DNA of 31,978 nt, from IMG/VR virus record IMGVR_UViG_3300032213_000150, positions 1 through 31,978 of that record. One strand, given 5' to 3'. Every line of letters starts with the position of its first letter. Position 1 is the stretch's first letter. Both the position numbers and the translations under genes were made by a program. Below, one piece after another: positions 1,999-31,978 of the stretch. Origin of the DNA: a virus. The notes beneath the pieces were generated by a model. It did no database searches and was not told the DNA's origin. It saw nothing but the letters and a program-made list of their open reading frames with translations.

Positions 1999-2027
1999 AG
2001 CCCCGCCTAAACAGCGGGGCTCTTTTT
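1999..2027 (+). terminator. Rho-independent terminator of the plus-strand replication genes
   Basis: A perfect 8-bp stem, AGCCCCGC (1999-2006) and GCGGGGCT (2014-2021), with a seven-base loop is followed by C and five T residues (2023-2027). This is a strong intrinsic terminator for plus-strand transcription. The T-run overlaps the stop codon (2026-2028) of the convergent giant gene. Read on the minus strand the hairpin has no T-run after it, so it could at most act weakly in that direction. Confidence 0.85.
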
Positions 2028-5000
2028 ATTGGAACTGCTCGAAGTAGTTAGCCTTCTTCTCAGCGGGCTTGGAGTCCTTCTTCAGCTTGTCCACATAGTC
2101 TTGCGTCACGATATGGCGTAGCTTGTCGTCAATGTACAGACCTTGGTCAGTTTTTGCAGACTTCTGCATCTTCTTCTCAATAGAACTAATGAGGCCATCT
2201 ACATCTATAGCATCAGTTGGGTGGCGCTCGTTAAAATCAATAATCTGTTTCAGAGCTTTGTCAACGCCATCAGTGTCATTGGTCATGAAGTACAAACCAA
2301 ACAGGTTCAGAGCTTCCGTGCGTTTCTTAGTGATGCCTTCAGCCTGACCCTTCTTTGTGATGTTGAAGTACTGACGCTCGGCAAGTTCCGCTGTGCGAAA
2401 ACCTAATGACTGCATAGCTATATCAAACGGGCTAAACTCGTCGACGATTTTGTCGCCCGCCATGTTAGTCGCGCCCTCTTTGCTGTACCTAAACGCCACC
2501 AATGGTTGACGAATAAACGCAGGCATCATGGCCTCAAGTGCGCGGTCACCGTGACCGGTTTTAAATAGGGTGTATGCACGAGCACCTTGTTGTAATATCC
2601 CAACAAATGGACCAAGAGTCTTAGTGATTGTGTCGTTAAGAGCAGTCTCAGCGTCTACATTCTGACGACTGTCGGGAATCCACATGCCGTCTAACTTGAG
2701 CTTGCTTGCAAAGTCATAGCCTAAAGCGTTGAACGCACCGCGTCCGAGCAACATACCTGCTTCTTTACCAAGAGTATTGACTGACCAGTTCATAAACTCA
2801 AGTTCAAAGTCCAAACGGTCTTCGTCATCAGGAGCCATACCAAAGTTAAACACGGCCTCTACGATAGCCGCCACAGTCGAGAAGCCCCAGAGACCAGTTA
2901 CCCCCGACATGATACCGGCCATGCCCATGGTCCCGATGAAACGTGCGCGTGCTTCGCGTCGGTCGGCTTCTGTTAAACCTTTGAACGAGTTGTATGCGTT
3001 GCGGGCTAAGAAGAACGTCATCTGCTGTGGGAACTGCTTAAACTGCAAAACCACACGAGCCACTGGGTGTTGCATGTAGCGGGGCTTATTTGGTGCAGAG
3101 TAATCAAACATGGACCGGTGGGTTGCATCTTTGGCTTCTGCAATAGCTTCAGCAAACGCTTGCTGTTGATTTGTATAGTTAGCCCGTTTCTCCATGGCCG
3201 CACGAAATGCAGACATAGATACCACTTCACGATTCATACGCTCAGCATGGTGGAACAAGAATGAGATCACCTGCATCGACTTGTTTGGGATGCCGGAGTA
3301 ATCTTCTGTTGGTTTAGAAGCCAGACCCGATTGGTCATACGCAGCCGTAATGTCAATAAGACCGTCGGCCACGAACCGCTTGTATGCAGCCATCTCTGCG
3401 CCAGTCAGATTCTTAGAGCGCTCAAGTGATGGCGTTAGCAAGCGAGCGTCACGAATACGGCCACCTGTTTCGACACCAAAGCCTGTAAGCCCCATCTGCC
3501 CAACAGTCCTAGATACCTGCATCATTACGTTGGCAACCGCACGGGTATAACCCATCTTAGGGTTTGCCCTAATCTGCTGACCTACAAGTGTAGGCACACC
3601 AATCATGATACCGCCCAAGATGTTGGTTACTGCTGACGCAACGGATGTCAAATAATAGATGAAACCAATGTTTGAGAAGTAGCTGACCCATGCACCATCA
3701 TCAGGTGGATTGAGCATGGCATTCAAACGCAGCTCAGTTTCTTTAACAAAGTCACGCAGCTCGTCGTTCTCAGCAGCCAGCACTGGGTCGTATCCTGCAC
3801 CAGCAGGCACACGGCGCTTTACCTGCGCACGGGCAGCGTCCATTTGCGAGAACATCTCAGGTGAAAACTCAAAGCGGGCCAACTGATACGCCATGTTGAA
3901 GGACGTGTTGGCGAAGTTACGCAAGGCGTCTTGTGAGAAACCCTCCACGCTGTTACGGTGGATAAACTGATTGCGCATACTGCGGTCAGGTTGATTCTGT
4001 AAGAACGTTTGATAGAAGCTGTCCTTTAGCTCCTTCTTACGAGCATCTGCGGCTGTAGTTGATAGCCCTGCAAAGTTGGCGCTGTCTACGGCAGCAAACA
4101 CCTCCTTGAGGAAGGCTGACTGCTGTGCATGGAAGTCCATCTGTTTAGCGTAGTCGTTACCAACGTTGTCGCCAATGGTCTGGGACAGGTACGGGTCTTT
4201 AGTTAAGCGCTCCTCAATGTGCGCATCGCGGGCACCTTGGGACTCAAACATGTAGTACTCACGGCCAGCGCCACGACCGATCTGATACCAAAAGCGGCCA
4301 TGACGCATCAACGGGAAGTAAGGACCCTTGAGTGCACCCTTCTCAAACTCGTTACGAATCTCAAGAATCGTTGCCTCTGACACACCAAGCTGGCGCATCT
4401 GGATGATGCGTCGGTTCATCAAGCGCTTGTAGTTTGCGTAGCGACGTTGGAAGAAGTCACGCACTTCTTTATATATGGCCTGAGCTTCTGGGTCTAACGC
4501 GTTCCAATCTTGTATCAACTGTACGTTAGCGTTGCGTTGCAGGGTAGTTGCTTTGGCTGGGTCTACTTCGGCAATAGTTGCAGAGTGCATTACCGCACCC
4601 AACTTGCGAGACATGTCTGGGTCTTTGGATTGCAGAAGTTCCCAACGACGAGAAATCTTTGCAGACTCCTCAAGAATGTTGCTCTTGCGGGCGAGGAAGT
4701 CCTCGGTCACGCGAATGAAGTTCTTGATCTGCGGGATACGACCAGCAACCAAGTCATCAATCTGACGAAGAGTCAACACACCTAAGAAGGCGGGGCGAAG
4801 CGCGGCATCAATGTTCCTAAACTCACGCCTGACTTGGCTCCAGTTGCGAGTCTGCATCCAACGGCGCAAAGTAGATGGCTGGTTAGGCATCCCCTTGGGC
4901 ATGATCTTGGGTTTTCTTTTCCCAGTAGCCATAGCTTTTGGGCCAGTGGTTACTGTCATGCCCTCTACAGACATCGTGCCCGCCATCATTGCGTCAGCAG

Positions 5001-8000
5001 CAAGCATGGCTTCAGCCATGACGTTACTCTCATAACCCTTCTTTACGTTGAAGAGTCTACGGATAGCATCCGTGAAGCGGTTCTGCAATGAGTAAGGCGC
5101 TGCCTTGTAGCGGTAGCCACGCAGCATAGCTTGGAATACTGGGTTAGTCAGAGCTTCAGATACAAACTCGTGCAGATCTTTAAGACCATAAATAGCGCCA
5201 ATGTCAGCGCCTTCTTGCTGTAGCTGCGCCTTAGAGTACTCATACAGCTCCATCAGGCGATCGTAGCCCTGACGTTGGAAGCCGCTGAGTCGCTCTGGGT
5301 TGTCAAGCAGGTGAGATGCGGCTGCGTGAATAGTTTCGTGCAGTAGCAAGTGGTTGGTCAACTTGCCTACACCGCGGCGCATAACAATAGAGTCAGTTGC
5401 TGGGTCGTACTTGCCGCTCCACGCATACTGTGTGTTGACCAAAGTAATCAAACTCTGAAGCACTTGCTTGTTAGACTCAGATGCATTCATCTGGTCCATA
5501 GATGACTCGATCTGCGCCAACGCAGTTAGCACGTTACGTAGTTTGCCTGAACGCAGCTCGGCTATCAAAGTGCCTTGCTGGTCAGTTGGATAGATTGCCG
5601 TGACTACATCACGCAGAGCGTCAATACGCTCTTTCAAAGACTTTTCAATGCTAGGGTCGTTGTTTAACGACTCCATAGTATCTGCGTCAACTATGCGAGT
5701 CTGGGCTGTAAAGCCAGTATCAAGCAGACGTTTAGCGAGCTCTGAGTAATACGGGTTACCCTTCATCTGCACCATCAGGTCCAGTGCGCCGCGTGTGTCG
5801 CCAGCCTCCAGCATGCGAACCATGTCCGGGTGCAACTCAGTAAGCATCTGAATTGTTGGCAGGTTTTTAGTTGACACTTCCACATCGGGGGTGGCTTCAC
5901 CTTCGCCCGTAGTGGTTTCTGTTAGGCGCTCAGAGATGCGTTTGAGCTTACGCTCGTTCTTCTTCTCTACAATTGTGGCCCGCTCTTTGGCCTCTTTTGC
6001 GAGCTGCTCTTCATAACGCTTAAGAGACTCGTGGTAGTCTGTTATTGCTTTACTATAAGCAACGTTGGCTTCGTGTGTTCTCTTGTGCTCTGCGACCATC
6101 TCGTCAAGAGTAGCTAGAGTGCTCTCAGACAGATTCTGTCTAATCCAGTCACGGAAGTTATTGGCGTAGCGCCCGCCTTCACCAAAGTAACCGTAGTTGG
6201 CATTGAAGTATTTAGGGTCTACTTCGTAGTAGGCTAAGTCATACGCCAAGGCAGACATAGCCTCGCCAAATGTTTTACGGTTCAGATTGTTCAGGTATGT
6301 CATAGCCGCAGACATCTGCGGAGACATCTTCACGCCAGCGTTAAATGCTTGCTTGATAGCCAGCAACGCACCGCGTAACTTAGGGTCTGCGATTACGTGT
6401 TCGTTCTCCGTCACACCTTGGCTTGGGCGACGAGGTTTTCCTTCTGCGGTTTTGCCAAACTTTTGTGTTACTGCCGTACCAGTAGTGATACGTTCTGTAT
6501 ACACACCGGACTTAGGCATCCCAACACCAACTTCTTTGCCGGACAGTTGGCTGACGTACTCGCGCACCTCATCGCTAAACTGCTCAACGCCACGGCGGGT
6601 CGTGAGGTCAGGGAGTCCAGCCTTAGTGTACAGGCGACCTTGTTCTTCAGGAGACGCACGACGGAGCGCATCCATTAAAGCTCTGAACGAGTCCATGCCG
6701 CCAACACGAGCGGTCAAGTACTTAAGCATTGTTTTAGCACCAAGACTCGTGCCTTCACCCGGTGCAGCAATATCAAACTGCAGCATGGTTTTAGCTGCAA
6801 CGTTCTTAGAACTATTGTGTCGTTCTTGCTCTGTTGGTGTTTCTGCAACAGGCTGGATAACGTCAAAAAAGTCTTTGACTTGCTCGCCCTCAGATGTTTG
6901 AGTTACGTGCTCGGTGCTGATGTCGGGAGCCTTAATAGGCTCACCTTTTTGGTCGTATTGAATTGGTTCAGCCGGGGTTGTGACAGTCTCGTCTACCTCA
7001 ACTTCAGCGCCAAACATGTCGCGCTCTGACTTAGTTTTACGTTGTGGCTTACCTTCAAGGGCACCCATCAAAGCATCAACATCTTTGTCGTCTTGTTCGC
7101 CAAACAGGTCACCCTGCATAGCGTTTGGCTGGCGTTGCAGTTGTGCAACAGCCTGATCTATTTGTTCAGATAATCTAGCTACGTGCTGCTCAGCTAACTG
7201 TTGGCGAGACTTAACCGCCTCACCTGCTGTCAAGCCGGGACCTGCTTGGGATATTGCCCAATTGTCGTCGTAGCCACCAGCTTCCAGCTTGGCTATGTAA
7301 CGTTGCTTTGCGGCCTCTAGGTTTGCAACGGCCTTGTTGACATCACCGCCCGCCATAGCCATGGCATCACGAGCCATTTGAGTAACTCGTTGGAACGAGC
7401 CAAACATATTACTCTGCATTCCCCGAGCCTCGCCGCCACCTTGTGATGCAAGTGCATCAAGCACGGGCGTGCCGTCAAACATTGGGTTTTTAAGCTGCTT
7501 AACTAGATTGCCATCTTTAATAAGCCCTGCGTTGGCATCTACAACGTCATTCAGGTCTTGAGAGACAATCTTCATCCTGCGCATGTCAGCATCTGTGGGG
7601 CGCTGAATGCTAATTAGGTCAGCAAGCTCCGTGCGAAGTTCGTCGTATTGGCGGCGGAAATCATCTAGTGCACCCGCTGGCTGTCCCGCTCCTGTATCAG
7701 CGTCTGTAACATCCTGTCCAGTAGAAACCATTCCATCTGGTTTAAGTCCAGCAGTTCGTCCGGCGGTGCCTCCTGCACCGGGCTGGCCAGCCAAGCCAGT
7801 GCCAGCTCCACCTGCTGGGGGGATAACTTGTCCAACATCTTCTTCCTCCGTGAGTCGGTCTAAGACTGACTTGCCAGTTTTCTTCTCATCACCCCTAAGA
7901 TATTTGTCCGCGATACCTTCTTTCAAGCCGCGATAGCCACCCGGACCTGCTCCGCCCAGTGCGCCAAGAATTAAATTGGCTGCTGAATCTTCGCCAATTT

Positions 8001-9003
8001 CTTTGCTTTTGACGACTTTTTTAACGGCAATATCCGAGGCTACGCCTTCGGCTACTTCTTGTGCGCCTTGTTCAGCAGCAGATAAGCCAGCGCCAGCACC
8101 TGTACGAGCAATGACAGATTTGCCCGCTACCTTCTTAAGCATATCGTCAAACGCGCCCGTTACCAGCTTACCCGTAAAGCGATCGCCAAATGTAGCTACA
8201 AGACCCTGCATAACTGCCCCAGTCTCAGCGGCTTTCTTAATAGCCAGATCGCGGGCTTCATCTGGGCTCGCGCCGCCTTTAATCATAGAAGCGTAAAAAG
8301 GGCTATCCGTCATTAACTGCTCATGCGACAGCTTGTTAATGTACTCAGCTGCGTTAGTGCCCGCCTCTTCGGCAGCCATCGCACCACCTGCCAAACCACC
8401 AGCGGTGGGGCTCTTAGTTATTACTGTTGTTGCAATAACAGGAGCTAGCGAACCAAATACGCTGGCCGCTTGCATAGCGTAACCGCGCACAGTTGGGTTA
8501 GAGCCAAAGTCAATTTCACCTTTGAATATGTTGCCGGTGACCTGTGACTCTTTAAGCGCTTTCTTGGTTTTTTCAGAAACACTGTCTTCGATGCTCTCTT
8601 GCACGCTTTTACCAATTTCGTTAAGCGCACGAGCCCCCGGTATGTTAGGTAAGGCAGCAAGAGTTCTAGCCGCCTGTGCCTTTTGTTCGTCAGTTGATAC
8701 ACCAAATAAAGACGCCTTAGCAATCTGCGCTAATCGAAGACCGGGTAGCGATGAAAGCTCATCCCCCTCTATGGCCCCACGCACTGAGCCTTTAACGCCC
8801 TGCTCAATTCCAAGTGGAATGCCAGCAGTCCCGCTAATTGCGGGACCTAAAACCCTTTTGGTGAAGTCGGCGGCGGTTGTCCAAATACTGTCTGACTCAG
8901 GCTCAGCCTTTTTCTTCTCTGGCTGTTTGTCAAACTGGGCAAAGAAGTTTTCGGATGGCTCTTTTTCTTTCGCAGTATCAAACTGTTCGAAAAAATTAGC
9001 CAT
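2026..9003 (-). CDS. Giant virion/polyvalent protein (2325 aa) with HETIH zincin motif; putative ejection protein
   Basis: This very large protein resembles the 'large polyvalent proteins' of podoviruses that are carried in the virion and delivered with the DNA. Visible parts: two FFxQFD motifs at residues 3-9 and 19-25; Gly/Ala-rich hydrophobic stretches near 175-220 and 340-365; a Gln/Ala-rich helical middle; a zinc-metallopeptidase-like HETIH at 1222-1226 with a later HEFVSE at 1278-1283; a hydrophobic segment near 1772-1810 with a Leu-Thr-Ser/Asn pattern recalling the LPD38-type region; another near 2022-2055; and a final FEQF at 2321-2324. The ATG is set by an excellent AGGAGG inside the last codons of the upstream gene, whose TAA ends one base before it. 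It is the last gene of the late block. The ejection role is inferred from size, composition and neighbours; the peptidase activity is unproven. Confidence 0.75.
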   Translation of the reverse strand: MANFFEQFDTAKEKEPSENFFAQFDKQPEKKKAEPESDSIWTTAADFTKRVLGPAISGTAGIPLGIEQGVKGSVRGAIEGDELSSLPGLRLAQIAKASLFGVSTDEQKAQAARTLAALPNIPGARALNEIGKSVQESIEDSVSEKTKKALKESQVTGNIFKGEIDFGSNPTVRGYAMQAASVFGSLAPVIATTVITKSPTAGGLAGGAMAAEEAGTNAAEYINKLSHEQLMTDSPFYASMIKGGASPDEARDLAIKKAAETGAVMQGLVATFGDRFTGKLVTGAFDDMLKKVAGKSVIARTGAGAGLSAAEQGAQEVAEGVASDIAVKKVVKSKEIGEDSAANLILGALGGAGPGGYRGLKEGIADKYLRGDEKKTGKSVLDRLTEEEDVGQVIPPAGGAGTGLAGQPGAGGTAGRTAGLKPDGMVSTGQDVTDADTGAGQPAGALDDFRRQYDELRTELADLISIQRPTDADMRRMKIVSQDLNDVVDANAGLIKDGNLVKQLKNPMFDGTPVLDALASQGGGEARGMQSNMFGSFQRVTQMARDAMAMAGGDVNKAVANLEAAKQRYIAKLEAGGYDDNWAISQAGPGLTAGEAVKSRQQLAEQHVARLSEQIDQAVAQLQRQPNAMQGDLFGEQDDKDVDALMGALEGKPQRKTKSERDMFGAEVEVDETVTTPAEPIQYDQKGEPIKAPDISTEHVTQTSEGEQVKDFFDVIQPVAETPTEQERHNSSKNVAAKTMLQFDIAAPGEGTSLGAKTMLKYLTARVGGMDSFRALMDALRRASPEEQGRLYTKAGLPDLTTRRGVEQFSDEVREYVSQLSGKEVGVGMPKSGVYTERITTGTAVTQKFGKTAEGKPRRPSQGVTENEHVIADPKLRGALLAIKQAFNAGVKMSPQMSAAMTYLNNLNRKTFGEAMSALAYDLAYYEVDPKYFNANYGYFGEGGRYANNFRDWIRQNLSESTLATLDEMVAEHKRTHEANVAYSKAITDYHESLKRYEEQLAKEAKERATIVEKKNERKLKRISERLTETTTGEGEATPDVEVSTKNLPTIQMLTELHPDMVRMLEAGDTRGALDLMVQMKGNPYYSELAKRLLDTGFTAQTRIVDADTMESLNNDPSIEKSLKERIDALRDVVTAIYPTDQQGTLIAELRSGKLRNVLTALAQIESSMDQMNASESNKQVLQSLITLVNTQYAWSGKYDPATDSIVMRRGVGKLTNHLLLHETIHAAASHLLDNPERLSGFQRQGYDRLMELYEYSKAQLQQEGADIGAIYGLKDLHEFVSEALTNPVFQAMLRGYRYKAAPYSLQNRFTDAIRRLFNVKKGYESNVMAEAMLAADAMMAGTMSVEGMTVTTGPKAMATGKRKPKIMPKGMPNQPSTLRRWMQTRNWSQVRREFRNIDAALRPAFLGVLTLRQIDDLVAGRIPQIKNFIRVTEDFLARKSNILEESAKISRRWELLQSKDPDMSRKLGAVMHSATIAEVDPAKATTLQRNANVQLIQDWNALDPEAQAIYKEVRDFFQRRYANYKRLMNRRIIQMRQLGVSEATILEIRNEFEKGALKGPYFPLMRHGRFWYQIGRGAGREYYMFESQGARDAHIEERLTKDPYLSQTIGDNVGNDYAKQMDFHAQQSAFLKEVFAAVDSANFAGLSTTAADARKKELKDSFYQTFLQNQPDRSMRNQFIHRNSVEGFSQDALRNFANTSFNMAYQLARFEFSPEMFSQMDAARAQVKRRVPAGAGYDPVLAAENDELRDFVKETELRLNAMLNPPDDGAWVSYFSNIGFIYYLTSVASAVTNILGGIMIGVPTLVGQQIRANPKMGYTRAVANVMMQVSRTVGQMGLTGFGVETGGRIRDARLLTPSLERSKNLTGAEMAAYKRFVADGLIDITAAYDQSGLASKPTEDYSGIPNKSMQVISFLFHHAERMNREVVSMSAFRAAMEKRANYTNQQQAFAEAIAEAKDATHRSMFDYSAPNKPRYMQHPVARVVLQFKQFPQQMTFFLARNAYNSFKGLTEADRREARARFIGTMGMAGIMSGVTGLWGFSTVAAIVEAVFNFGMAPDDEDRLDFELEFMNWSVNTLGKEAGMLLGRGAFNALGYDFASKLKLDGMWIPDSRQNVDAETALNDTITKTLGPFVGILQQGARAYTLFKTGHGDRALEAMMPAFIRQPLVAFRYSKEGATNMAGDKIVDEFSPFDIAMQSLGFRTAELAERQYFNITKKGQAEGITKKRTEALNLFGLYFMTNDTDGVDKALKQIIDFNERHPTDAIDVDGLISSIEKKMQKSAKTDQGLYIDDKLRHIVTQDYVDKLKKDSKPAEKKANYFEQFQ

Positions 9004-20656: not shown

Positions 20657-21685
20657 TCATATCCCACCGTGTCCGTTGGAACAGCCTGCCATTGACCATG
20701 TGCCTGTAATTAAGTCGCCAAAATCAATGGCATCGCCTGTGGTGGCAATCGTGACGTAGTCAATAATATTACGATACACCGCATTATTATTTCCCCCCGC
20801 AAAAACACCCCTAGTAGAAGATGAAGCCGCGCTAACAAAATAACGTCCAAGGGTTAAGTCGCCAAAATCTGTGGCATTACCAGTAGAAGCAATAGTGACG
20901 TAGCTAATAACATTTGTATTTGCAGAACCAGTTTCTCCACCTCCAAACAAGCCACGAGTAGCTGAAGAGCAGGACGCAAGGCCATAACTAACCACCGTTA
21001 AATCTCCAAAATCTGTAGCATTACCAAGTGAAGCAATAGTGACGTACTCAATAGTATTTACTCTATCACTACCGTTATAACCACCACCAAACAATCCTCT
21101 TGTTGGAGAAGCGCACCCAGCCCCATAAGCATCTACCCCCAATAAATCTCCAAAGTCTGTGGAATTTCCAGCAGTTGCAATAGTGATGTATTCAATTACG
21201 TTTCTATAACCGTCATCACCCCCTCGTCCGCCAGAAAACAAACCTCTAGTAGCTGAAGAGCATCCAGCTTGAAGTCTTATTGTTTCAAGTAAATCACCAA
21301 AATCTGTAGCATTCCCTGTTGTGGCAATAGTTACATATTGGATCACATTGTTTGGGCCAGTGCCCCCAGAAAAAATACCCCTTGTAGAAGATGCACAACC
21401 TGCTTGTTGTTCTACTGCGGTAATTAAATCACCAAAATCAATAGCATTTCCAGTCGTGGGAATAGTTATATATTGAATGACGTTTGTAAAGCCCGGAGTT
21501 GTACTTCCACCCGCAAATACCCCAATAGTTGCAGTATTACCAGCAGTGGGCCACAACCCTTGCTGAATCCAAAATGTTGCTTGGTCTATTGTCCAGACAC
21601 CGGGAGCCGCTCCGTTTGCAAACGGCCCAGCAGGAGGTACGGCTACGGGTCTGATGATCCCTGCGTTCCATGAAGATGTTGCCAT
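20657..21685 (-). CDS. Kelch-like six-repeat protein, fibre/receptor-type (copy 3, 342 aa)
   Basis: After a proline-rich start and a GVWTIDQATFWIQQGLWP segment (29-46), the protein consists of six tandem repeats of about 48 residues (55-342). Each repeat has the form G[VIL]F-x-GG, N-x-I-x-YxTI, TGNATDFGDL and a GCSSxTR end. The GG...Y pattern resembles kelch blades, so a six-bladed beta-propeller is likely. The last unit ends GCSNGHGGI in place of STRGVF, a form that could close the ring. It is the last of three paralogues in a row. Such proteins are seen in aquatic phages near tail fibres; host receptor or glycan binding is inferred. It lacks the conserved Trp of classic kelch. Confidence 0.7.
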   Translation of the reverse strand: MATSSWNAGIIRPVAVPPAGPFANGAAPGVWTIDQATFWIQQGLWPTAGNTATIGVFAGGSTTPGFTNVIQYITIPTTGNAIDFGDLITAVEQQAGCASSTRGIFSGGTGPNNVIQYVTIATTGNATDFGDLLETIRLQAGCSSATRGLFSGGRGGDDGYRNVIEYITIATAGNSTDFGDLLGVDAYGAGCASPTRGLFGGGYNGSDRVNTIEYVTIASLGNATDFGDLTVVSYGLASCSSATRGLFGGGETGSANTNVISYVTIASTGNATDFGDLTLGRYFVSAASSSTRGVFAGGNNNAVYRNIIDYVTIATTGDAIDFGDLITGTWSMAGCSNGHGGI

Positions 21686-23520
21686 TTTTATAGACCCCCG
21701 TGAGAATTAGAACAGCCAGCTTGCGCTTCAAGAACAGATAGCAAGTCGCCAAAGTCGGTGGCGTTACCTGTGGAGGCTATAGTGATGTATTGAATCACAT
21801 TTGTTACAGAACCTTCACTGTTTCCACCAGCAAAAACACCCCTTGTGGATGACGATGTACCGGCTATTGAGTACTTGCTATTTATTAAGTCACCAAAATC
21901 TGTAGCGTTACCCGTAGTTGCAATAGTCACATACTCAATAATATTGACCCCTGTACCAGAAGGCCCACCACCGGCAAATATACCTCGGGTAGAAGATGAA
22001 CAACCAGAAACTCCGGGTAGCCCCGCTGATACATCACCAAAATCCGTAGAATTGCCCGTGGTTGCAATAGTGACATACTCAATATTATTTATTGGTATAC
22101 CGCTAGAATCATCGGTTAGCGTAATAACCCCGCGAGTTGTAGAAGCTACCCCCGTACCGTAATAAGCGGGTTGGCTTAAATCCCCAAAGTCAGTGGAATT
22201 ACCTGTTGTTGCAATAGTGATGTATTCAATGGTGTTTTTAACGCCACTTGCGTATCCAAGGGTCAAAACACCACGAGTTGAGTTTGACAGGGCTAATGCT
22301 CTATTATTTCCAGCACTTATATCGCCGAAATCAATAGCGTTGCCTACTGTGGCAATAGTCACATAGTCCATTACATTAACAGAGCTACCTCCTATAAACA
22401 CACCGCGTGTAGAAGAAGAGCAAGCGGCTAGTTGTGTTCTGGTAACTGTTAAGTCGCCAAAATCTACAGCATCTCCAGTAGTTGTAATAGTGATGTACTG
22501 AATTACATTTGTGTTACTTCCGTAATTTCCGCCGCCAAACAAAGCAATAGGCACAACGTAACTAGGCCAATTCTCCGCCCCGATAGCCTGCATCACAGCA
22601 GGGAGTGTCCATACACCTGAATAACTTGGCATTTATAGACCTCCGTTAGCGTTTGAACAACCTGTAATGCCCACAGCAACTATAGTTAAATCGCCAAAAT
22701 CTGTGGCATTACCTGTAGAGGCAATAGTGATGTAGTCCATGACATTTATGCCGTCTGTAGCAGCATTAGTTGCCCCGCCCCCAAAAACGGCACGAAGGCT
22801 AGACGATACACAACCCGACTGATTGACTTGATTTGATAAGTCACCAAAGTCTGTAGCATCGCCTGTAGAAGCAATCGTAATGTAACTAATTACGTTGGTT
22901 CTAGTAAAAGAACCACCTGTCTGCCCACCTCCAAAAACTCCACGAGTAGATGAACCACCACCCGCCACACCTAGTTGAGTTATTGTTAAATCTCCAAAAT
23001 CTGTGGCGTTGCCTGTAGTAGCAATTGTTACATAATCAATTACATTTACAGGGTTTGGATCATCGTAACCACCTGCCCAGACACCACGAGTAGGAGACGA
23101 ACAAGAACCTGTACCATATCTACTGGATGTTAAATCACCAAAGTCCGTTGCGTTGCCTGTAGTAGCAATTGTGATGTATTCAATAATATTTGTTTCTGTT
23201 CCGTTAAGGTCGAGTCCCCCACCGAAAAGCCCACGGGTAGACGAATTGCAACCAGCGGCAAGATACCTTACAGATGAAAGCGCCCCAAAACTTGTAGCGT
23301 TACCGGTAGTGGCAATTGTTACATAGTCAATTACATTTACATCGGTATTAGGCGGCCCCCACAAACCACCTGCAAAAACGCCTCGTGTTGAGGAAGCGCA
23401 TCCAGCAGTTCGGTATCTTCCTAAAGTTAAATCGCCAAACGTAGAAGCATTGCCCGTTGTTGTAATGGTAATGTACTGAATTAAGTTTGTTCCGCTTATA
23501 GACCCGTTATATCCGCCTGC
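20713..23520 (-). repeat. 18-fold DNA repeat within three paralogous genes
   Basis: A core of about 50-57 bases coding for N-x-I-x-YxTIATTGNATDFGDL recurs every 135-150 bases, with breaks at the gene joints at 21.7 and 22.65 kb. Copies begin near 20713, 20855, 20998, 21141, 21289, 21426, 21743, 21887, 22037, 22178, 22319, 22451, 22685, 22836, 22987, 23130, 23280 and 23429. Copies differ mostly at third codon positions. They are coding repeats, not a CRISPR array. Confidence 0.8.
21688..22632 (-). CDS. Kelch-like six-repeat protein, fibre/receptor-type (copy 2, 314 aa)
   Basis: This is the shortest of three tandem paralogues. A 29-residue head (YSGVWTLPAVMQAIGAENWP) is followed by six repeats of about 47 residues with the same YxTIATTGNATDFGDL core, ending GCSNSHGGL. 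Repeats 3 and 4 depart from the usual GVFAGG opening (GVLTLGY and GVITLTD), so those blades lack the double Gly. The start follows the stop of copy 1 directly (TAAATG), with GGAGG in the last codons of that gene, so translation is coupled. The head shares the GVWT...WP pattern with copy 3 but not copy 1. It is presumably a fibre tip or decoration protein; binding partner unknown. Confidence 0.7.
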   Translation of the reverse strand: MPSYSGVWTLPAVMQAIGAENWPSYVVPIALFGGGNYGSNTNVIQYITITTTGDAVDFGDLTVTRTQLAACSSSTRGVFIGGSSVNVMDYVTIATVGNAIDFGDISAGNNRALALSNSTRGVLTLGYASGVKNTIEYITIATTGNSTDFGDLSQPAYYGTGVASTTRGVITLTDDSSGIPINNIEYVTIATTGNSTDFGDVSAGLPGVSGCSSSTRGIFAGGGPSGTGVNIIEYVTIATTGNATDFGDLINSKYSIAGTSSSTRGVFAGGNSEGSVTNVIQYITIASTGNATDFGDLLSVLEAQAGCSNSHGGL

Positions 23521-23862
23521 AAATATACCTCTTGGCGGAACGGCAGGAGTCACACTACCACTAGCTGCACTGTAAGCACTTGGGCCATAAGTGTTTGTAG
23601 CCCACACAGCAAACGTGTAAGCCGTGCCATTAGACAAGCCAGTAACACTAATTGGTGAAGAAGCCGCAGAAGCCACGACCCCACCGGGTGTAGACAACGC
23701 TGAGTAAGATGAAATAGCGGAACCGCCTACATTAGATGGCGCAGTAAAAGCAACAGACGCAGAAGCATCACCACCCGTAGCCGTCCCAATGGTCGGCGCA
23801 TTAGGATTGTTCAGCGGATCAAAAAAGGCTGAGATAAACCCAGCAGGAGGACGTAGTGGCAT
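22633..23862 (-). CDS. Fibronectin III plus kelch-like six-repeat fibre protein (copy 1, 409 aa)
   Basis: This is the first and longest of the three paralogues. The head reads PPAGFISAFFDPLNNPNAP and is followed by a fibronectin type III-like domain (about 20-108, with ASVAFTAPSNVGGSAISSY and LSNGTAYTFAVWATNTYG). From residue 111 come six repeats of about 50 residues with the shared N-x-I-x-YxTIATTGNATDFGDL core, ending GCSNANGGL. Fibronectin III modules are frequent in exposed phage virion proteins and are thought to bind carbohydrate. A GGGGGG ribosome site lies in the 12-base gap after the 128-residue gene. The architecture suggests a receptor-binding or fibre protein with a swapped adapter head; the role is inferred. 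Confidence 0.7.
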   Translation of the reverse strand: MPLRPPAGFISAFFDPLNNPNAPTIGTATGGDASASVAFTAPSNVGGSAISSYSALSTPGGVVASAASSPISVTGLSNGTAYTFAVWATNTYGPSAYSAASGSVTPAVPPRGIFAGGYNGSISGTNLIQYITITTTGNASTFGDLTLGRYRTAGCASSTRGVFAGGLWGPPNTDVNVIDYVTIATTGNATSFGALSSVRYLAAGCNSSTRGLFGGGLDLNGTETNIIEYITIATTGNATDFGDLTSSRYGTGSCSSPTRGVWAGGYDDPNPVNVIDYVTIATTGNATDFGDLTITQLGVAGGGSSTRGVFGGGQTGGSFTRTNVISYITIASTGDATDFGDLSNQVNQSGCVSSSLRAVFGGGATNAATDGINVMDYITIASTGNATDFGDLTIVAVGITGCSNANGGL

Positions 23863-25110: not shown

Positions 25111-26004
25111 CTATGTAGCAATCTCTGTCCATTCGGGGTTTTGTGTAGTTGACACATCAACCCAATTTGGTGTCTGGGAATCATCAATCACAGTCCACCC
25201 CCTAATAAAAACTGTTCCAACTGCTCCAGTACCCTGCACGCCAGTCACCAAAATGGTTTCTGATACTTTAACTGAAACAGTACCAACTTGTCCAGTTGCA
25301 CTGACCCCTGTAACACGATTTATTACTCTGGCTATCGCAGTGCCTACTGCACCTGTACCAACCACACCTGTGGGTGATGCGCCGCCGTTATAAATCAACG
25401 TTACCGTGCCAAGCTGACCTGTACCCGCAACACCTGTTGGAACCAGCGTCTTGTCCAATCTGAACGTAACGCTACCAACGGCCCCTGTACCAACCACGCC
25501 CGTAGGAGTGAATTGAACTTCGGGGGCTACAGTGCCAACTGCCCCTGTACCTGCAACTCCTGTTACAGAGATTGCTTTACCAACTCTTATCAGCGGAGTA
25601 CCAATTGCGCCCGTACCCTGCACACCAATCGGGATAACAAAGTCATTGACGTTAACAATGAAGTTGCCTATCTCCCCAACACCCTGTACGCCCGTAGGCA
25701 TGTACGCGACTCTTGGAGTAACCGCCCCTACTGAACCTGCCGCTGCTACACCGGTAAGGGTGAATCTAACCGCCGGTACAACACTTCCTACTGCACCCGT
25801 ACCCGCTACGCCCGTTGGAATGAACGTAATAGATACTGATATGCCAACCGAACCAACAGCGCCTGTACCTTGGACTGATATGCTGTTTTGTCCCCAAGGG
25901 CCATCGCCCCAAGTAGACACACCCCAGCCGCTCATTGGGAAGACTACACCGTCTCCACCCCAAGCGTTATACCCCCAAGGACGTTCGCCCCATCCGGTTG
26001 CCAC
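25111..26004 (-). CDS. Eleven-repeat GTGAVG protein with W/G-rich head (297 aa)
   Basis: The head (residues 1-40) is a Trp/Gly array (GWGERPWGYNAWGG, GWGVSTWGDGPWG). Residues 44-273 are eleven repeats of the type V-x-G-T-G-A-V-G-x-V followed by a variable strand and P-T-G, each 20 or 22 residues long. The tail has WVDVSTTQNPEWTEI. The even repeat lengths and alternating side chains suggest a stacked beta structure such as a fibre shaft. The start is a GTG at 26004 with only a weak GTGAG site; a nearby ATG is out of frame. It lies in the fibre module and may form a spike or baseplate part. Function is inferred only. Confidence 0.6.
   Translation of the reverse strand: MATGWGERPWGYNAWGGDGVVFPMSGWGVSTWGDGPWGQNSISVQGTGAVGSVGISVSITFIPTGVAGTGAVGSVVPAVRFTLTGVAAAGSVGAVTPRVAYMPTGVQGVGEIGNFIVNVNDFVIPIGVQGTGAIGTPLIRVGKAISVTGVAGTGAVGTVAPEVQFTPTGVVGTGAVGSVTFRLDKTLVPTGVAGTGQLGTVTLIYNGGASPTGVVGTGAVGTAIARVINRVTGVSATGQVGTVSVKVSETILVTGVQGTGAVGTVFIRGWTVIDDSQTPNWVDVSTTQNPEWTEIAT
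25186..25875 (-). repeat. Eleven tandem 60/66-bp coding repeats
   Basis: Units coding for V-x-GTGAVG and following residues repeat eleven times; each is 20 or 22 codons. On the plus strand the shared word is close to CCAACTGCACCTGTACC. Confidence 0.7.
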
Positions 26005-26759: not shown

Positions 26760-27181
26760 TAGGTAATCCTTATGATTGCGTTAGTGCTATTGGCAACTGG
26801 AAACTGCACAGTAAACGAAGCAACAGACGTTTTATCTGAACCAAAGTCTAATACACAAACAGTCGGATTAGAACCACCTGATTGGTAAATTAAAGCGCCG
26901 CGTGCAGTAAGTGGGCCATACCAAGTAACATTAGAAAACGAGATATAACTAACGTTGTTAGCAGATATTGGTACAACAGAAACTGGAAGCGCAATACCAC
27001 CTGCGGTGTAACCTGTAGCTACAACTTCACCTGTTATGCCAGCGGTATAAACAGCGGTATCTGGGCCTAGTGTTGCTGCACCTGTGTACAGCGCCATCTT
27101 AAATGAGCCAGACGTAAAGTTGTAGACACCGTTCATTAGCCCGGTGGCAAACGCATTGGTAGCGCCTTGTTCAAGAGCCAT
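26759..27181 (-). CDS. Small virion protein, paralogue of the 151-aa neighbour (140 aa)
   Basis: It shares the frame FKMALYTG, VVATGYTAGG, TARGALIYQSGG, VCVLDFGSDK and FTVQFPVANSTNAIIRI with the 151-residue protein downstream. Both therefore have the same beta fold and probably the same kind of virion position, perhaps as different decoration subunits. The ATG overlaps the TGA of the adaptor gene (TGATG). No enzymatic motif was seen. The structural role is inferred from family and neighbours. Confidence 0.6.
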   Translation of the reverse strand: MALEQGATNAFATGLMNGVYNFTSGSFKMALYTGAATLGPDTAVYTAGITGEVVATGYTAGGIALPVSVVPISANNVSYISFSNVTWYGPLTARGALIYQSGGSNPTVCVLDFGSDKTSVASFTVQFPVANSTNAIIRIT

Positions 27182-27846
27182 CAGGTCACCGCCTGTCTAT
27201 ATTGACCAGAACGATAAGCATCCTGACGCTCCATACCATCGCCCAGACGTTTAGCCAACGCAAGTGCTTCTTGGTACTTACCGTTGTACAGCGCCATCAT
27301 GTCTTGCTCACCCTTCATGTAGGTGTAAGCTTCAACCAACGAGCCATACAAAAGCACTGAGTCAAAGTTGTCACCAAGCCATGTAGTTGTCGCAGTTACA
27401 ATAGACTCTGGGTAGTAGTAATAGTGCAACTCAACGGGATAGCTACCATCTGGTGTAGGGCCGAGGATAAACGTTAGCTCTGCATCATTAGTAGACTGAG
27501 GGCCAAACAACGCATAGTACTTTGGAGCGCCAGTATCACTAGCTCTTGGGTATGCTTGACGAATAAAGTTCACGTCTTTGTTTAGCAAATACTCGTAATC
27601 ACCTGTAGCTAACGTACCGTCTACCACAGCCATTGAGTACACCGCCAAGAAGTCCGACGGGCAAGCTAAGTACTTATTGCTGGCGGTTGTTACTCCTGTC
27701 ACGTTCTTGCGAAGTGATGGAAACTGAACGGTGTTGTAAATGCGCTGCTCAGCTTGCTGAACGAACACGGGGATATTAGCCACGAAATCAGCTTCCGTGT
27801 TCTCCGTGTACGCTTGAATAGCAGTGCTGAGTGCGGCGTAATTCAT
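27181..27846 (-). CDS. Phage neck adaptor protein (221 aa)
   Basis: The protein begins with a helical NYAALSTAIQAYTENTEADFV and VFVQQAEQRIYNTVQF, then has the strand-rich LACPSDFLAVYSMAV and LHYYYYPESI regions and a helical end (VEAYTYMKGEQDMMALY). This is the usual pattern of the small adaptor/head-completion proteins that bind under the portal in podoviruses (P22 gp4-like in role). Length fits. Its ATG overlaps the stop of the 68-residue gene (ATGA) and its end overlaps the next start (TGATG). The family call is from pattern memory; portal binding is inferred. Confidence 0.65.
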   Translation of the reverse strand: MNYAALSTAIQAYTENTEADFVANIPVFVQQAEQRIYNTVQFPSLRKNVTGVTTASNKYLACPSDFLAVYSMAVVDGTLATGDYEYLLNKDVNFIRQAYPRASDTGAPKYYALFGPQSTNDAELTFILGPTPDGSYPVELHYYYYPESIVTATTTWLGDNFDSVLLYGSLVEAYTYMKGEQDMMALYNGKYQEALALAKRLGDGMERQDAYRSGQYRQAVT

Positions 27847-28049
27847 GCCATCGGGCCTCGAGACATCAGACCTTTAGTAGCCGCCCCTGTACCGCGCATC
27901 TTGATGCCGCTGGTTTTAGTTGGCTTATAGCCTTGGCTACGGGAGTTAGCCACGTTAGTGGGCGTCTCCCGTAGATATTTAGCGTTGTCTTCTACACCAG
28001 CTTCTTGGATAGGAGCAGGTTTAGGCTGACGGTAAATTTTTGTAGCCAT
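27843..28049 (-). CDS. Small basic protein with ATKG-containing tail (68 aa)
   Basis: This short, basic, low-complexity protein has a Pro-rich start (YRQPKPAPIQEAG) and a C-terminus TSGIKMRGTGAATKGLMSRG. The ATKG word recalls the tag at the ends of three other small proteins at the right side of the window. It is preceded by GGAGG and overlaps the adaptor gene by four bases. It is likely disordered. Its constant company with the adaptor gene in related phages (from memory) suggests a neck or packaging accessory; function unknown. Confidence 0.55.
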   Translation of the reverse strand: MATKIYRQPKPAPIQEAGVEDNAKYLRETPTNVANSRSQGYKPTKTSGIKMRGTGAATKGLMSRGPMA

Positions 28050-30136: not shown

Positions 30137-30553
30137 TTAGTACATCTTGCAGTTAGTCTTGCCTTTTGTGGCAATACCGTCGGCACGGCTAGAAGCGGAA
30201 CCACCGGAAGCCATCTTTGTAACTTTCTTCATCCCAGCAGGTTTGCCGGTCTTAGAAAACGACATAAACTTAGCGGTCATGCCGCCTTTGGCTTTGTTCT
30301 CAGTAGTCAAAGACTCGTTGTACGCCTTTTCCTGTTTCTTAGCGTCAGCACGGTCTTTGGCTTCTTGTTTGGCTTCCTCAATAGCGTCAAAGTTAGCTGG
30401 TTTTTCAACACCGCGAGACTCACGTTTAATTTCAGCATCGTCTTCACGTTTTTTGGCGTCAAGCTTTTTTTGACCTGTCATAGACGCTAATTTTACGGGT
30501 CCGGCCATAAGCCCTGCACCCCCGGCAATAGTGGCAGCTAATTTTCCAAGCAT
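30137..30553 (-). CDS. Basic protein with tagged C-terminus (138 aa)
   Basis: A hydrophobic Gly/Ala N-terminus (LAATIAGGAGLMAGPV, 5-20) is followed by a charged helix (KQEAKDRADAKKQEKAYN), then a Lys/Gly tail with KAKGG and KMASGG and the final RADGIATKGKTNCKMY. The same last 16 residues, with one change, end the 169-residue protein upstream. The start lies nine bases after the TAA of that gene (TAAGGA). The two are probably diverged duplicates or share a mobile tail. Function unknown; virion DNA or membrane contact is possible. Confidence 0.6.
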   Translation of the reverse strand: MLGKLAATIAGGAGLMAGPVKLASMTGQKKLDAKKREDDAEIKRESRGVEKPANFDAIEEAKQEAKDRADAKKQEKAYNESLTTENKAKGGMTAKFMSFSKTGKPAGMKKVTKMASGGSASSRADGIATKGKTNCKMY

Positions 30554-30562
30554 GATAAGTCC

Positions 30563-31072
30563 TTAATACATTTTGCACTTGGTCTTGCCTTTGGTGGCAA
30601 TACCGTCAGCGCGTTTGGAAGCCGAAGAAGCCATGCCACCGGAGGCCATTTTCTTAACCTTGCCGCCCTTTTTGTAGTAAGAATTACGGCGCGGGACATT
30701 ACTAATTCCCATATCGTATTCAGCACGTGTCATTGGACTACCGACGTTAGCTTCCTGCATTGCCGCCTCTGCCGCCTCGCTCATAGGCCGTGACTTAACT
30801 ACGGGTTTACGCGTGATGGGCTTAGGCGCAGTAGGTTTAGATGGTGGAGAAACGGTCTCGCTGGAACTGCGACCGGCGCTAGAACCATAGTCAGAGTACA
30901 TGTCGTCATCTAAATTACGAGCTACATCTAGCTTTTCTGGTATTTCGCTAGCTTCTTTATCAGCAGCTATACGGCGTTCCGCTGCGGCGGAGTCTTTTTT
31001 GTCGCCCTTCTTGGACAACATATAGCCCAACGTGCCAAGCGCGGCAAGGGCTGTCAAGTCTTTACGTGCCAT
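30563..31072 (-). CDS. Basic protein with tagged C-terminus (169 aa)
   Basis: A short hydrophobic start (LTALAALGTLGYML) is followed by Lys/Glu-rich, then Pro/Ser-rich spacer sequence and a Lys/Gly tail with YKKGGKVKKMASGG and the ending KRADGIATKGKTKCKMY. It shares the whole tail with the 138-residue protein and a shortened version with the window-end protein. It is largely disordered by composition. AAGGAG precedes the ATG after a 15-base gap. The repeated tail suggests a common sorting or binding signal. Function unknown. Confidence 0.6.
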   Translation of the reverse strand: MARKDLTALAALGTLGYMLSKKGDKKDSAAAERRIAADKEASEIPEKLDVARNLDDDMYSDYGSSAGRSSSETVSPPSKPTAPKPITRKPVVKSRPMSEAAEAAMQEANVGSPMTRAEYDMGISNVPRRNSYYKKGGKVKKMASGGMASSASKRADGIATKGKTKCKMY

Positions 31073-31087
31073 GTTGGGCTCCTTAAA

Positions 31088-31543
31088 TTAGCAGGCTTTG
31101 CCGCCGTAGTTCATCTTCTTGGTCATGCCGCCTTTTTTCATGCCTAGTGGCTTGCCGTCGGCTTTCATACTGACCATAGTGCCCTTTGACAGACCCTTTG
31201 ATTGAATGGCGTGCTCGCCTTTGCCTTTAAAGCCACCAGCTTTAACTGCGCCCATTTTGGCTGTAGTGATACCGTTACCGGCACTGCCGCCTTTTGCCAT
31301 TTTCTTTGTAGCCATGATTCCACCTTTTTTCATAAGTTCCATCTTGCCTTGGCGGGTCGATGGGTTGTTAATTTTTTGAAGATCGGGGCGGGACTTGTTG
31401 GTGTCCTTACCAAACTTCATACCTTTGCTTGCTTCACTAAACTCTTTTGCAACTTTTACAGGAACGCCAGATGCTTTGGCAAATGCTGGGTTGTGAGCCG
31501 CAGCGTCCATGAACTTCTTTTGTTTTTCACTCGTCGCTGGCAT
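31088..31543 (-). CDS. DUF3008-like protein with Lys/Gly-rich tail (151 aa)
   Basis: The N-terminus MPATSEKQKKFMDAAAHNPA and VPVKVAKEFSEASKG is typical of the small DUF3008 family (assignment from memory). The rest is a long, disordered, Lys/Gly/Met-rich tail with AKGG, KKGG and MNYGGKAC at the end. It is strongly basic. AAGGAGG lies within the holin-like gene, overlapping its last codons. DUF3008 proteins have no known biochemical role. The tail has the same style as its neighbours, which suggests a common virion partner. Confidence 0.6.
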   Translation of the reverse strand: MPATSEKQKKFMDAAAHNPAFAKASGVPVKVAKEFSEASKGMKFGKDTNKSRPDLQKINNPSTRQGKMELMKKGGIMATKKMAKGGSAGNGITTAKMGAVKAGGFKGKGEHAIQSKGLSKGTMVSMKADGKPLGMKKGGMTKKMNYGGKAC

Positions 31544-31721
31544 TTGCAGCCTCCTTGCGATTAGTCAAACCACGAACGGTGTCGGACTCCCAGATACGGA
31601 GGCCAAGATAAATAATCGTGAACAAAGAAGCCAGAGGTGGAAGCCACGTAGCCATAACACCAACAGTTGTTAAAACTGCTGCGCCATCTGCAACTGCTTT
31701 AGCTGTGTCATGCTGGGTCAT
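31527..31721 (-). CDS. Small holin-like membrane protein (64 aa)
   Basis: Two hydrophobic stretches, about 14-27 (GAAVLTTVGVMATW) and 29-43 (PPLASLFTIIYLGL), are followed by a charged RIWESDTVRG tail, a pattern seen in small phage holins. It may span the membrane once or twice. The ATG overlaps the TGA of the window-end gene (ATGA), and its last 17 bases overlap the DUF3008-like gene. It lies 13 kb from the main lysis cassette, so it may be an early-acting holin, an antiholin or unrelated to lysis. The role is inferred only. Confidence 0.55.
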   Translation of the reverse strand: MTQHDTAKAVADGAAVLTTVGVMATWLPPLASLFTIIYLGLRIWESDTVRGLTNRKEAANASDE

Positions 31722-31978
31722 ACCATACGTCCTTTTGTCTTGCCTTTAGTGGCGCAGCCATCAGCCGCAGTTGCATACCCGCCATCCGCGCAGTTCCATG
31801 CCCTCAAAGACTTATTAATCCTTGAATCCGGATCGTTGGCCGTCTTTGCGCTGGTCAGCTTCTTTTTCATTCCACTCATCCTCGCACAGAAAGAGTCGCG
31901 CCGGGAGCCGCCTTCGGGCTGGGGCCGTTTCAAATTCATGCCTTGCGCTTTCGCAGAGGCTCGCCCTTTGGCGTTCAA
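31718..31978 (-). CDS. Small basic phage protein, DUF6321-like (partial, 5' end outside window)
   Basis: The visible 86 residues have NLKRPQPEGG, RRDSFCARMSGMKKKL and a KSLRAWNC segment, the blocks of a small basic family widespread in aquatic phages (possibly DUF6321; from memory). The C-terminus is ADGCATKGKTKGRMV, related to the tails of the 138- and 169-residue proteins, and CADGGY precedes it. The first codon in the window is TTG with no upstream sequence, so the real start lies beyond the right edge. Function unknown. Confidence 0.6.
   Translation of the reverse strand: MNAKGRASAKAQGMNLKRPQPEGGSRRDSFCARMSGMKKKLTSAKTANDPDSRINKSLRAWNCADGGYATAADGCATKGKTKGRMV

Follow-up and report, generated by a model that had tools for sequence, protein, structure and literature searches.

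A conserved C-terminal peptide on unrelated small head-operon proteins of short-tailed freshwater phages, a candidate virion-loading tag

The window analysed here is the whole of virus record IMGVR_UViG_3300032213_000150 (31,978 bases). Near its end, three open reading frames (ORFs) on the minus strand encode proteins that finish in the same peptide, hereafter the tag, of the form SSASKRADG[IC]A[TQ][KR]GKT[KR][GC][KR][MIF][VYC] followed by the stop. These are (i) a 169-aa protein (30563-31072), predicted to consist of a short Ala/Gly/Leu-rich N-terminal helix, a disordered body and the C-terminal tag (AlphaFold, mean pLDDT 54), which ends in MASSASKRADGIATKGKTKCKMY and whose tag copy, GGMASSASKRADGIATKGKTKCKMY, is encoded at 30566-30637, (ii) a 138-aa protein with an unrelated body according to BLASTP (30137-30553), ending in SASSRADGIATKGKTNCKMY (30140-30208), and (iii) a DUF6321 protein (31718-31978; Pfam PF19846, E 1.5e-13), cut by the contig end, whose full-length homologues have about 104-117 aa and which ends in ADGCATKGKTKGRMV (31721-31792). 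A 24-column profile of the tag has exactly three matches in the full record, namely these copies (E 3.9e-15, 4.4e-15 and 2.0e-12, respectively). The initial annotation had proposed that the 138- and 169-residue proteins and the protein at the window end share one tail on otherwise dissimilar bodies, and both points are borne out. Indeed, the sole real BLASTP match between the 169- and 138-aa proteins is their last 32 residues (26/32 identical, E 2e-12), and the match of the DUF6321 protein to tagged proteins is confined to the tail. For this last protein the tail stands, with the qualification that the ORF is incomplete and that its body is a DUF6321 domain. A further ORF, overlooked in that annotation (31088-31543, minus strand), encodes a 151-aa protein in which the tag core has decayed, as judged by alignment with tag-bearing orthologues; these orthologues carry the tag and a short Cys-terminated extension. 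The N-terminal module of this ORF matches PHROG virion structural proteins.

The constant neighbour of the tagged genes is an adaptor gene (SU10_adaptor, Pfam PF24175; 28682-29629, minus strand), and a second adaptor-type protein of the same Pfam family is encoded at 27181-27846 (minus strand; E 6.4e-26). The 68-aa protein encoded at 27843-28049 (minus strand) had been linked to the tagged proteins on the basis of the string GAATKGLMSRG. This string is present as part of another C-terminal motif (KTSGIKMRGTGAATKGLMSRGPMA), a look-alike of the tag, whose BLASTP similarity to the tag is at noise level. This second, strongly conserved motif (KTSGIKxRGTGAATKGxMARGPMA followed by the stop) was found in 131 distinct endings, mostly of one family located after the adaptor. 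It resembles the tag in spelling (RxxGxATKG...RGxM), the pairwise BLASTP similarity is not significant, and it is possibly a distant relative of the tag. Elsewhere in the window, three consecutive ORFs of 342, 314 and 409 aa (20657-23862) contain repeats like NVIxYVTIATTGNATDFGDL...RGVFGGG, a 297-aa protein (25111-26004) is made of TGVxGTGAVGTV-type repeats, and a 2325-aa protein (2026-9003), a candidate ejection protein, matches a PHROG named DarB-like antirestriction (E 5.9e-91).

In IMG/VR, about 390 distinct C-terminal copies of the tag were found (final set of 391 proteins in 70 body families, grouped at BLASTP E 0.01), with the consensus GGxxSSASKRADG[IC]A[TQ][KR]GKT[KR][GC][KR][MIF][VYC] before the stop. 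When the 169-aa protein was used as query, 79 loci were returned and, past the first 14, mostly tail-region matches. Scanning of ORFs yielded 329 tagged ones that differ in their ends; in 234 of these the stop comes exactly four residues after GKT[KR], and some copies have 11-25 extra residues behind the tag. The initial annotation had suggested listing the bodies that carry a C-terminal ATKGKT, and had named confinement to one homologous family as the outcome that would speak against a tag. Since about 70 body families are tagged, such confinement is rejected. Its reading of the tail as a targeting or binding tag is accordingly upheld as far as a shared tail on unrelated bodies is concerned, and does not extend to the 68-aa protein with its different motif. 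No match was obtained in a tblastn search of GenBank phages with the tag alone. Among four chosen records searched with the profile, Planktothrix phage Pag-Yong1 is the sole named phage with a tag, a divergent GRT variant (GRDGCAKRGRTKGRFI) that forms the very C-terminus of a 308-aa protein. Records OQ594354, OL906435 and PP438419 (L216), which bear different phage and host names, all have 65,014 bp and are identical over the tagged protein; they are probably one phage deposited three times. A limited literature search on DUF6321, Pag-Yong1 or a common phage C-terminal tag found nothing.

In the tag codons, third positions are nearly free, with synonymous positions close to saturation, and the amino acids are fixed; selection therefore acts on the peptide. 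Positions D-14, G-13, A-11, G-8 and T-6 are fixed, an invariance partly imposed because D, G, A and GKT are in the search pattern, while A-19, S-18, R-16, A-15, G-4 and the basic positions lie outside the pattern and yet are conserved. Lysine and arginine are freely interchangeable at positions -9, -5 and -3, and the mean net charge is +4.5 for the tag and +9 for the body. When tags are compared within one genome, their similarity exceeds that of family-matched tags from different genomes (0.695 vs 0.656, sd 0.007), which a shared partner would predict; synonymous sites are likewise more alike within genomes (0.496 vs 0.441), so that part of this likeness may stem from gene conversion or codon usage. 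The sequence directly after the tag stop showed no conservation.

The position of the tag in the genome is equally constant. An SU10-type adaptor gene is present in 283 of 305 tagged loci, the other 22 end too early to tell, and there is no exception. As a search by the tag pattern is biased, loci were fetched by the adaptor protein, and all 40 of those with at least 3 kb upstream have one or more tags. In 20 IMG/VR records of 32-87 kb (the window included; the 19 others measure 44-87 kb), the profile matches only within a few kb around the adaptor, near the MCP/cement-adaptor junction. In two examples, the gene order is portal, scaffold candidate, second capsid-type protein, MCP (Phage_capsid_4 / Mu gpT-like), cement candidates, tagged genes, adaptor, zinc ribbon, second-motif protein and second adaptor, the scaffold and cement genes being named by position. 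No tag was detected by profile search in three relatives with the same adaptor, DSL-LC04, Roseobacter CRP-902 and Pelagibacter HTVC027P. Linked to the adaptor and absent from these relatives, the tag therefore characterises one podophage clade and a single position in the operon. Judged by gene order and adaptor, this clade is related to the Pam1/DSL-LC04 type, and the tag bearers are a group of short-tailed freshwater phages. As a guide to the bacterial host, tagged contigs from bacterial assemblies were considered; the three good contigs among them, L202, L204 and L208, turned out to be adaptor-bearing loci of phage type, and for this reason their binning is not host evidence.

The bodies, for their part, are exchanged rapidly. 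In an alignment of 17 positional equivalents of the 169-aa protein, the last ~34 residues are nearly invariant and the bodies vary in length and sequence, some beyond recognition. Between loci with 90-97% adaptor identity, 27% of the tagged bodies have a homologue in the other locus, versus 74% of length-matched untagged ORFs, and at 70-80% adaptor identity the values are 19% and 75%. Loci with identical adaptor and tagged set were dropped from this run, which lowers the closest bin; when identical loci are retained, 56% of bodies are in common at ≥97% adaptor identity and 33% at 90-97%. Disorder-promoting residues make up 71% of the bodies, versus 50-54% of MCP, adaptor and zinc ribbon, and 316 of 386 bodies are classed as unfolded in a charge-hydropathy plot; with such disorder-like bodies, part of the similarity loss may be fast drift. 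Loci contain 1-5 tagged genes, encoding proteins of roughly 50-580 aa, and this varying number suggests that part of the turnover reflects true gain and loss of genes. Among 255 longer tagged proteins, 82 contain a short hydrophobic segment (19 after shuffling), which in most cases begins within the first 25 residues; it would suit a membrane-active cargo, a fit contributed mainly by one family.

In the AlphaFold model of the 169-aa protein, the tag is without structure. When 85 diverse tagged proteins were compared with Pfam, PHROG and NCBIfam, the tag was not covered, the only matches being DUF6321 and scattered weak ones; a PDB search with the tag gave no match, and a search of the tagged bodies against Pfam, PHROGs, NCBIfam and PADLOC gave nothing convincing except DUF6321. 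A Walker A P-loop is spelled by the tag (GxxxxGKT, as G-I-A-T-K-G-K-T), but residues 125-169 are modelled as coil (pLDDT about 50), only five residues lie beyond GKT, and Pag-Yong1 has GRT; on this model, the spelling is taken as a coincidence.

The least expected result, which lies outside the initial annotation, is a bias towards a single cysteine. Exactly one Cys, at -12, -4 or -1, is found in 221 of 332 distinct tags, whereas independent shuffling (2000 runs) averages 142 and never exceeds 167; 98 of the 332 have no cysteine. In the DUF6321 subset, 29 of 30 tags have one Cys, as C...V or I/V...C (Fisher p 1.5e-6, a value inflated, like the other cysteine p-values, by relatedness among the sequences). 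This mutual exclusion recurs across unrelated bodies, and 310 of 374 bodies are cysteine-free.

Two known systems offer a precedent. The T4 internal proteins Ip1-3, which are injected, have nothing in common but their capsid targeting leader (CTS) (PMC12373910; PMC3012670); in T4 as here, small phage proteins that lack homology and are hypervariable carry a single short conserved peptide. The CTS is N-terminal and proven to direct packaging; the tag is C-terminal, occurs in another phage clade inside the head operon and has the single-cysteine bias, and its role in packaging is a putative one. By analogy, the tag would work like the T4 CTS while standing outside that family, since it sits at the opposite protein end. 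In encapsulin systems, whose shell has the HK97 fold, cargo proteins of different kinds are encoded next to the shell gene and end in a short conserved cargo-loading peptide (PMC7355545); the tag resembles this peptide in closing several proteins whose genes accompany that of the shell protein. The encapsulin peptide has about 10 residues and binds a hydrophobic pocket on the inner face of the shell, whereas the tag has about 20 residues, is basic and occurs in phages. DUF6321, which is also one of the tagged body families, is similarly a short basic module reused at the ends of unrelated phage proteins; it is however a separate domain of ~60 residues in many cyanophages, and the tag comes after it and matches none of its profiles.

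An unstructured, library-unmatched and constrained C-terminal peptide with these T4 and encapsulin precedents may serve for virion loading, as a cargo tag to which a common head-neck protein binds; we give this proposal about an even chance. The initial annotation had offered head loading, a processing protease or a common partner; head loading is favoured on the basis of the head-neck position, the fast-turnover bodies, the selected peptide and the T4-like logic. According to this proposal, the head operon would yield 1-5 proteins that are small, basic, for the most part disordered and rapidly exchanged. At assembly, a single head-neck component shared by all of them (scaffold, portal, inner capsid or adaptor) would capture each by its tag; the variable bodies would then ride in or on the particle and probably be delivered with the DNA. 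We infer the common partner, the loading and the delivery, injection being the weaker of these. With their disorder-like sequences, the bodies differ from T4 IPI, which is compact, and any role as effectors is uncertain.

Other explanations were weighed against the loading tag. The basic, GK-rich tail could instead be a DNA-binding peptide; the packaged genome would then be coated or condensed by the tagged proteins, and no specific protein partner would be involved. The positive charge of tag and body and the K/R interchange would agree with this, and T4 internal proteins also contact DNA phosphates (PMC3012670); however, the uncharged or acidic positions from D-14 to T-6 listed above are fixed (in part through the pattern), A-15, S-18 and A-19 are conserved outside it, and charge alone would not predict the exact C-terminal placement or the cysteine pattern, so that this explanation seems rather unlikely. 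Slightly less probable still is that the tag docks permanent minor portal-adaptor components rather than cargo. The tagged genes do lie between cement and adaptor, the expected place of head-completion genes, and at least one occurs in every full locus, but number, length and bodies vary strongly among near relatives, which is unusual for stoichiometric parts, and relatives with the same adaptor exist without the tag.

A tail recognised by a protease, either for maturation cleavage or as a ClpX-type C-terminal degron, would account for the constant C-terminal placement, and the basic-hydrophobic ending loosely resembles known C-terminal degrons. The extra residues behind some tags would nevertheless be intolerable for a free-C-terminus degron, and strong conservation across 16 or more residues exceeds what is typical of one; we regard this possibility as improbable. 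Finally, a recombination or regulatory site in the DNA, translated incidentally, could explain why tags persist while bodies swap and why third-position identity is slightly raised within genomes. The near-saturated synonymous positions under fixed amino acids, the unconserved post-stop sequence and the compensating cysteines already disfavour it, and it is very improbable.

If the tag is a loading peptide, its lone Cys could bond the variable cargo to a head-neck receptor, the tag thus serving as a port for exchanging virion-borne proteins; such thiol-dependent loading is speculative and on balance doubtful, but the bias makes the binding chemistry directly testable. A 155-aa family encoded between the scaffold candidate and MCP (L361:2131-2598) has an invariant Cys (GGLLLCRIP) in all the tagged phages checked and in Pag-Yong1; this position is Ala in the untagged DSL-LC04 and HTVC027P and Cys in the untagged CRP-902, which leaves a weak lead to a thiol partner.

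In summary, if true, the loading tag would mean that an abundant uncultured phage group has solved, for a second time and independently of T4, the problem of how to fill a phage head with proteins that keep changing. It would also give a simple sequence rule that lists candidate virion cargo among the 'hypothetical' small genes of many genomes, as well as a short C-terminal peptide whose capacity to package foreign proteins could be examined.
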